This document shows, in pieces, positions 25,184 to 25,398 of a DNA stretch of 64,000 nucleotides. How positions within the stretch are numbered: the stretch's first letter is position 1; every line of letters starts with the position of its first letter. A program made the translations under genes and the position numbers. The notes under the pieces are model-generated. The model had not been told where the DNA came from. It ran no database searches and was given only the letters and a program-made list of their open reading frames with translations. This DNA comes from Candidatus Kryptoniota bacterium (lineage in GTDB: Bacteria; Bacteroidota; Ignavibacteria; Kryptoniales; JAKASW01), in assembly GCA_036567965.1 (NCBI GenBank), contig DATCTN010000006.1, positions 62,001 through 126,000 of the forward strand, read 5' to 3'.

Positions 25184-25321
25184 TAGGAGCGGTAGGATTC
25201 TCCGCCCGAGGCGGATCCTCCGAAGGAGTCTCCCGAAGGGATCCCTTCGGGACTTCGGACCTTCGGGAGAACCCACGACCTTGGCACCTAAAGCGTCACG
25301 CTTTAACCGAACCACATCCTT
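25184..25321 (-). pseudogene. Degenerate tRNA-Pro copy interrupted in the T-loop
   Basis: Read on the minus strand, this stretch aligns with the intact tRNA-Pro next to it. The D-arm side GTGGTTCGGTTAAAGCG matches the GTGGCTCAGTCCGGTTAGAGCG region with a short deletion. CCAAGGTCGTGGGTTC matches the variable and T-arm left side with two bases missing. GAATCCTACCGCTCCTACA matches the T-arm right side, acceptor strand and trailer at about 16 of 19 positions. The anticodon stem-loop is wrecked. Between TTC and GAAT of the T-loop lies a 68-bp palindromic block. It cannot form a functional tRNA and is best read as a decayed duplicate that received an insertion. Confidence 0.7.
25201..25268. repeat. 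68-bp palindromic block inserted in the tRNA-Pro copy
   Basis: GC-rich block of nested inverted repeats. A 6-bp stem TCCGCC/GGCGGA with loop CGA (25201-25215) is followed by CTCC/GGAG with loop GAA (25218-25228). A perfect 22-bp palindrome centred on GATC (25231-25252) comes next, and TCTCCCGAAGG (25229-25239) can also pair with CCTTCGGGAGA (25260-25270). It splits the T-loop exactly between TTC and GAAT. No second copy was seen in the window. It resembles small non-coding palindromic elements (REP/BIME or RPE type), but its family is unknown. Confidence 0.65.
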
Positions 25322-25323
25322 TG

Positions 25324-25398
25324 TCGGGGCGGTGGGATTCGAACCCACGACCTCTTGGTCCCAAACCAAGCGCTCTAACCGGACTGAGCCACGCCCCG
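25324..25398 (-). tRNA. trnP: tRNA-Pro (UGG)
   Basis: A 75-nt cloverleaf on the minus strand. The acceptor CGGGGCG pairs with CGCCCCG, the anticodon stem CTTGG/CCAAG encloses loop TTTGGGA (anticodon UGG), and the T-arm is GTGGGTTCGAATCCCAC. The discriminator is A and CCA is not encoded. Confidence 0.95.

Follow-up and report, generated by a model that had tools for sequence, protein, structure and literature searches.

A palindrome-split tRNA-Pro copy from a Kryptoniota genome as a probable relic of a tRNA-associated GIY-YIG element

The decayed tRNA-Pro copy at positions 25,184–25,321 of the window, the stretch of 64,000 nucleotides analyzed here, is probably what is left of a mobile GIY-YIG element associated with tRNA genes, now devoid of its ORF. 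The proposed unit consists of a GIY-YIG ORF that starts just after an intact tRNA gene and ends at or in a second, truncated copy of that tRNA. In the window, the ORF would be gone, with the tRNA, the spare copy, and the plug in its T-loop left behind.

The tRNA-Pro locus of the window and its palindromic insert

The window is located on contig C6 of a host genome of 4,145,171 bases in 32 contigs. The intact tRNA-Pro(UGG) gene (25,323–25,398, minus strand; gene call for anticodon TGG, 72.9 bits) has a Pro(CGG)-like body, which differs from the Pro(CGG) gene of the same genome solely in the anticodon wobble base. The decayed copy lies immediately 3′ of this gene. Within 25,184–25,321, tRNA gene finding called no tRNA, and an Rfam scan of the whole window returned three intact tRNAs only. 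The preliminary description had nonetheless recognized a second tRNA-Pro here, and this is borne out: GAACCCACGACCT is identical in the decayed and intact copies (13/13), which establishes that the flanks of the insert are tRNA-derived, and the D-arm and 3′ end are also recognizable.

In minus-strand orientation, GGTTAAAGCG-TGACGCTTTAGGTGCCA-AGGTCGTGGGTTC of the decayed copy is followed by the 68-bp insert and then by GAATCCTACCGCTCC. By direct reading, the 5′ part (25,269–25,308, minus strand) comprises the D-loop GGTTAAAGCG, a replaced anticodon arm TGACGCTTTAGGTGCCA, and the T-stem GGTCGTGGGTTC, and the 3′ part (25,184–25,200, minus strand), GAATCCTACCGCTCC, comprises the 3′ strand of the T-stem and an acceptor remnant. 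The insert occupies exactly 25,201–25,268, where the minus strand reads GGGTTC-68 bp-GAATCC; the earlier placement of the split between TTC and GAAT of the T-loop is thus correct to the base. The anticodon arm has been replaced too, with TGACGCTTTAGGTGCCA where the intact gene has CTTGGTTTGGGACCAAG. This replacement, a point beyond the preliminary description, proved on comparison of the loci to be diagnostic of the element copies.

Between the two copies, at 25,308–25,322 (minus strand), a residual mobile-unit start, AAAGGATGT, is followed directly by the unit tail, as read against the ORF-bearing locus of genus mate G001 (AAAGAAGGATGTACACG ... CGGTTAGAGCG). The start of the window unit reads GAC-AAAGGATGTGG-TTCGGTTAAAGCG, which resembles a unit start fused to a unit tail, and the GIY-YIG ORF of this unit was therefore probably lost by deletion. 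In a by-eye count, the 3′ part of the copy, GAATCCTACCGCTCC, has two differences from the replaced tRNA body as opposed to four from the native body of sister genomes.

The 68-bp insert, resolved by direct reading and folding, is a composite of palindromes. It contains the perfect 22-bp palindrome noted previously, TCCCGAAGGGATCCCTTCGGGA, at 25,231–25,252, made of two 11-bp hairpins, TCCCGAAGGGA and TCCCTTCGGGA, as well as TCCGCCCGAGGCGGA and TCCTCCGAAGGA units. The insert-bearing minus-strand transcript folds with −65.9 kcal/mol, compared to −52.0 ± 4.1 for shuffled sequences, and surpasses all of them (0/200 shuffles as good). As would be expected of the mobile element envisaged in the preliminary description, the 22-bp palindrome is found at 12 places in the host genome with ≤2 mismatches, most of them outside tRNAs, and a reversed-pattern control yielded none. 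The core TCCCGAAGGGA (≤1 mismatch) has five matches in the window compared to 1.5 expected, so that the window is otherwise without notable copies. Elsewhere in the genome, copies of tRNA-Lys and tRNA-Met carry an almost identical 108-bp composite palindrome within differing tRNA flanks; by reading, the window composite corresponds to this type minus two inner palindromes. A tRNA-Ala copy carries another palindrome, of CTACGA type.

Interrupted tRNA copies and GIY-YIG units in the genus and beyond

Downstream, same-strand copies with an interrupted T-loop are found at 10/46 tRNA genes of the host genome. The tRNA set rests on a genome search with 46 matches over the cut-off and on ARAGORN, which called 46 genes in the fetched neighborhoods; copies were detected by aligning the tRNA halves that flank the T-loop to the surroundings and by reading, the Arg copy by reading alone. 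The genes concerned are Val(GAC), Pro(TGG), Lys(CTT), Pro(CGG) with two tandem copies, Val(TAC), Met, Ala(GGC), Leu(CAA), Ser(GCT) with several copies, and Arg(ACG), beside which an Arg(TCG)-type copy is located. Two generalizations were ruled out. Copies are not always downstream, since 5′ copies precede the intact tRNA at Ser(CGA), Pro(GGG), Ala, Arg, and further genes, and not every copy is split in the T-loop, since anticodon-loop and D-loop inserts are common.

A scripted list of 91 splits in tRNA copies places 39 in the T-loop, 24 in the anticodon loop, 17 in the D-loop, one in the variable loop, and 10 elsewhere; some rows are composites or mutual repeats, the 10 others are kept in the counts, and the window copy, whose 3′ half has decayed too far, is missed by the script. 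When only splits that lose or double no more than one tRNA base are considered, 21/22 in the T-loop follow base 3 of the seven loop bases, five of seven in the anticodon loop follow base 3 and two follow base 4, and all 11 in the D-loop follow bases 6, 8, or 9. Inserts range from 14 to over 100 bp. Their commonest ends are a TCC start and a GGA finish (34/91), and several are exactly two 11-bp hairpins. For Val(TAC), the anticodon arm is replaced in four copies from three genomes by hairpins that differ from one another and yet pair fully.

In relatives with the same layout, a GIY-YIG ORF of about 80–100 aa, coding for the catalytic domain only, lies between the intact tRNA and the spare copy. 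It starts 0–10 nt past the intact tRNA and ends at or inside the second, truncated copy. In the Pro-type units of G001 and G002 (L178, L187), the stop codon is the TAG within GGTTAG of the D-loop of the copy, so that ORF and copy overlap. Four of the proteins, three of them tRNA-linked, match PF01541 at 2e-14 to 6e-18, and the conserved Y, Y, G, R, H, and E are present, Y5, Y16, G18, R26, H30, and E62 being invariant in 14 sequences (A1). The nearest solved structures are those of UPF0213 proteins and SLX1, followed weakly by I-TevI. Given these neighbors, it is possible that the nuclease cuts tRNA loops in a structure-directed manner. A tblastn search of a phage collection with one nuclease protein returned nothing at E 1e-3. 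A T-loop pattern matched in 14 of 119 genomes (relatives, the host included), several of these cases being plainly of other kinds; the nuclease profile was used instead.

The PF01541 search gave 16 matches in the host genome and matches in 12/12 genus mates. From both searches, 46 loci were read, the best-scoring among the matches listed, with overlaps due to tandem ORFs (L126/L127, L149/L158, L150/L164). Profile A1 divides them into 26 loci at 72–123 bits, 15 at 37–69 bits, and five that are long or unrelated. An intact tRNA or a fragment is present in 25/26 loci of the high-scoring group: 19 have an intact tRNA and six have fragments only (initiator Met in L126, L127, L130, and L134, Asp in L161, Asn in L166), with L165 having neither. 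Intact tRNAs are found in 0/15 loci of the low-scoring group and 0/5 of the long or unrelated loci. This division is partly circular, as profile A1 was built largely from sequences of the high-scoring group, and the loci outside the genus provide the independent test.

Outside the genus, profile A1 matches 153/196 genomes of the class at E ≤ 1e-8 and 98/296 genomes of the phylum at E ≤ 1e-20. After removal of four places counted twice, an intact tRNA is present in 48/56 distinct nuclease loci, those read being the best-scoring among the matches listed; for comparison, positions no more than 1.5 kb from a tRNA make up 2.5% of the host genome. The adjacency of gene and target that characterizes homing endonucleases appears here as adjacency to tRNAs, the tRNA beside a GIY-YIG gene being the presumed target of the nuclease. 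By subset, the counts are 18/22 from the class search, 20/20 from selected regions (chosen from the match list at a stage when their tRNAs had yet to be called, with preference for tandem arrays), and 14/18 from new phylum loci. Five of the eight loci without a tRNA call are cut by contig ends (L225, L230, L264, L268, L270) and three are full-length (L229, L232, L261). The plugged-copy pattern also occurs in further families, both of the class and of the phylum.

Two loci within the genus are of separate interest. In G007 (L123, G007:C25, about 1122–1580), a second 3′ end of the tmRNA lies downstream of the first and has a palindrome in its T-loop, so that this type of element extends beyond tRNAs. 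In the host genome, which is G000 (L140, G000:C20:8000-20431), four GIY-YIG ORFs alternate with pieces of initiator tRNA-Met; the intact gene for this tRNA is located at the end of contig C2, and the assembly may therefore break at this array.

Pro loci across the genus

The Pro loci were fetched by DNA search over the 13 genomes of the genus. Pro(CGG) has ORF-bearing units in G001 (tandem), G006, and G010. Pro(UGG) has them in G002 (tandem), in G005 with a decayed ORF, and in G011, where the 420 nt read contain the ORF and no copy. ORF-less copies are found in G004, on contig C21 of the host genome, and in the window. On contig C86 of G002, three ORF-truncated units in tandem show a path to ORF loss. 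In all Pro copies, the anticodon arm has been exchanged for TGGCGCG-NNN-CGCGCCA or a decayed version of it: the motif is present in G001, G002, G006, and G010, and variants are present in G005, G004, the C21 copy, and the window. An arm replaced in the manner of the window is seen in the copies of eight other Pro loci of the genus. Internal copies of G001 and G002 and both copies of G006 have an uninterrupted T-loop and the anticodon-arm change instead.

Alleles with and without the unit are found at one and the same Pro locus. No copy is observed at Pro(CGG) in G003, G004, G007, G008, G009, G011, and G012. In G003 (L177, G003:C187), the 30–40 nt past Pro(CGG) resemble the start of a GIY-YIG ORF, ATGTTTCGGGTATACATCCTTTCGAGTAAGAAG, and fainter likenesses were read in G009 and G012; these three sites may formerly have been occupied by an element that has since been lost. 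At Pro(UGG), the empty sites that the preliminary description proposed looking for do exist in sister genomes: G001, G003, G008, G009, G010, and G012 have a native tRNA body and no copy. The Pro(CGG)-like body is found in G000, G002, G004, G005, G006, and G011; Pro(UGG) of G007 is absent from the loci compared. Element traces at Pro(UGG) are present in 0/6 native-body compared to 5/6 replaced-body genomes (G006 being without), a contrast among few, related genomes that is uncorrected for phylogeny. The order Pro(UGG)-Gly(GCC)-Cys(GCA) is shared by G000, G002, G003, G006, G008, G009, and G010. The exchange of the Pro(UGG) body for a Pro(CGG)-like one, which affects part of the genus, can be followed at 25,323–25,398 of the window and at sister loci L196, L198, L199, and L200. 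A public Bacteroidetes record (L061) has the same sequence at its Pro locus as G004.

Interpretation and relation to known systems

A homing-like element of tRNA genes would be the simplest reading of these loci. GIY-YIG homing nucleases make DNA breaks. Here, the nuclease would cleave tRNA genes that lack the unit, and repair of the break would import the unit together with adjacent tRNA sequence, that is, homing with co-conversion in which the tRNA is kept intact. More tentatively, the T-loop palindrome of the terminal copy might mark the cut or recognition site, and it might abolish both the tRNA identity and the cleavability of the spare copy. The intact tRNA of an occupied allele retains its own T-loop, so the plug by itself does not account for self-protection. 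The insertion point lies inside the T-loop motif GTTCSAWTY, the reverse complement of the SegB motif RAWTSGAAC; the SegB motif is present in the intact sister for only 13/21 gap-free T-loop splits. The closer likeness of the nuclease profile to UPF0213 and SLX1 than to I-TevI, the uninterrupted T-loops of some array copies, and the ORF of G011 with no copy in the 420 nt read also speak against the homing-like reading. The palindromes might have arisen as scars or plugs where loops were cut, or they might belong to a hairpin family of separate origin; the data favor, and do not prove, a link to the GIY-YIG units. A fuller scheme, possible rather than probable, is a bacterial class of mobile elements in which a minimal SLX1/UPF0213-like GIY-YIG nuclease recognizes, in DNA, the hairpin loops of tRNA genes, homes from one tRNA gene to another while rewriting tRNA bodies, and leaves spare tRNA copies behind, with small double-hairpin inserts, themselves mobile and growing by nesting, closing the cut loops at the apex.

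The preliminary description had attributed the split to a small palindromic mobile element. A recurring palindromic unit does exist; the palindrome is, however, the lesser part of the matter, the tRNA copy itself probably being part of a mobile unit that has a GIY-YIG gene in relatives. The more specific notion of a single RPE- or REP-like family entering a decayed gene is inadequate, because inserts differ by species at one tRNA position and several palindromes occupy D-, anticodon, and T-loops. In a broader form, the palindromes would form a small mobile family of their own, REP- or double-hairpin-like and perhaps moved by a Y1/RAYT transposase, that enters hairpin loops and finds tolerant targets in tRNA copies. 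The 12 genomic places of the 22-bp palindrome, mostly outside tRNAs, the near-identical composite in the Lys and Met copies, the nested growth at palindrome centers (the Met composite being the window composite plus two inner palindromes), and the Y1 transposases (Y1_Tnp) in 12/13 genus genomes are consistent with such a family. It is considered unlikely in view of the variation between species of inserts at one tRNA position and the location of plugged copies within GIY-YIG units or in relic-like settings.

A role of the plugged copy as a functional structured RNA, in which a tRNA-like 3′ structure would serve to process or stabilize a tRNA-GIY-YIG transcript, appears improbable. Pairing is kept despite sequence change in the Val copies (TCCCGATTC..GAATCGGGA, TCCCGACTTG..CAAGTCGGGA, TCCCGTCTC..GAGACGGGA), stems are intact with inserts confined to loops, and the ORF begins within 10 nt of the tRNA end, but the 5′ acceptor strand is often missing, many copies are ORF-less and decayed, and insert size varies between 14 and more than 100 bp. 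Integrases are known to use the T-loops and anticodon loops of tRNAs as crossover sites, and attachment scars typically include a duplicated tRNA 3′ end, both of which would suit the scar of a tyrosine-recombinase island at the T-loop. Such a scar is highly improbable given that the ORF between the copies is a nuclease of another kind, that 5′-half copies lie upstream of intact tRNAs, and that the tandem units measure about 100–310 bp. Random decay of a duplicated tRNA, which the preliminary description had argued against, with palindromes arising by chance, is barely credible: the copy is plainly degenerate and escapes tRNA calling, but the recurrence at 10/46 tRNA genes refutes this explanation, and the exact loop position and the occurrence in further families, at class and at phylum level, also contradict it.

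The features combined here have precedents, each known on its own: free-standing phage genes for GIY-YIG homing enzymes located near tRNAs, mobile ORFs that replace a gene end, and small double hairpins. The tyrT locus of Escherichia coli, in which 178-bp tandem repeats with tRNA-Tyr 3′ ends lie downstream of the tRNA, is reminiscent of the copies described here and differs, to our knowledge, in having neither a nuclease ORF nor a loop palindrome. T6 SegB is a GIY-YIG homing enzyme that cleaves in tRNA genes with a preference for RAWTSGAAC, the T-loop on the other strand, and substrates with a disrupted motif are cut less, yet still cut (PMC13096335). Such free-standing phage enzymes are, similar to the present nucleases, encoded beside tRNA genes and occur in tandem tRNA–nuclease repeats; SegB cleaves inside tRNA genes at the T-loop motif, as the present nucleases might (PMC13096335, PMC2988022). 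The units differ from the SegB-type enzymes of T-even phages in their location on bacterial chromosomes, their catalytic domain of about 80–100 aa alone, and their spare tRNA copies with loop palindromes.

In fungal mitochondria (Allomyces atp6; Glomus atp6, atp9, cox2, and nad3), endonuclease ORFs bring a replacement gene end, and a second end remains downstream; the duplicated 3′ end carried by the mobile ORF keeps the host gene usable (PMC3630166). This combination of endonuclease ORF and duplicated host-gene end is also encountered in the GIY-YIG units, where the host gene is a tRNA and sometimes the 5′ end is duplicated instead. In the fungal cases, the leftover end is the native one, whereas the spare copy in the window does not represent the native 3′ end of Pro(UGG). 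Mitochondrial double-hairpin and repetitive hairpin elements share small double hairpins with conserved stems, variable loops, and tandem composites; the inserts described here are bacterial, sit at the loops of tRNA copies, and are tied to a nuclease unit (PMC2800124). A literature search found no report of chromosomal bacterial tRNA-linked GIY-YIG units with palindrome-split copies. If the proposed element is real, many small GIY-YIG proteins of Bacteroidota could be explained as parasites of tRNA genes, and a mechanism for tRNA gene replacement, in which one tRNA body overwrites another, would be at hand.

The fixed loop positions of the palindromes in tRNA copies offer an experimental handle on the origin and spread of small palindromic repeats. 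In the host genome, the 22-bp palindrome is also observed inside a longer dispersed repeat (L012–L015, L007, L008), in CTTTTG..CAAAAG and GCGATTTTTTG contexts; in further copies of this repeat, the slot is filled by other palindromes, TCCGCCTGCGGCGGA or TCCCGAC..GTCGGGA. A larger field of nested palindromes of GTCGACGAAGCTCC..GGAGCG type lies 3′ of tRNA-Ser(GCT), besides the tRNA copies (L091, G000:C21:266200-267600), and nested palindromes of similar style are located in G017 at a site without a tRNA call (L112, G017:C3).
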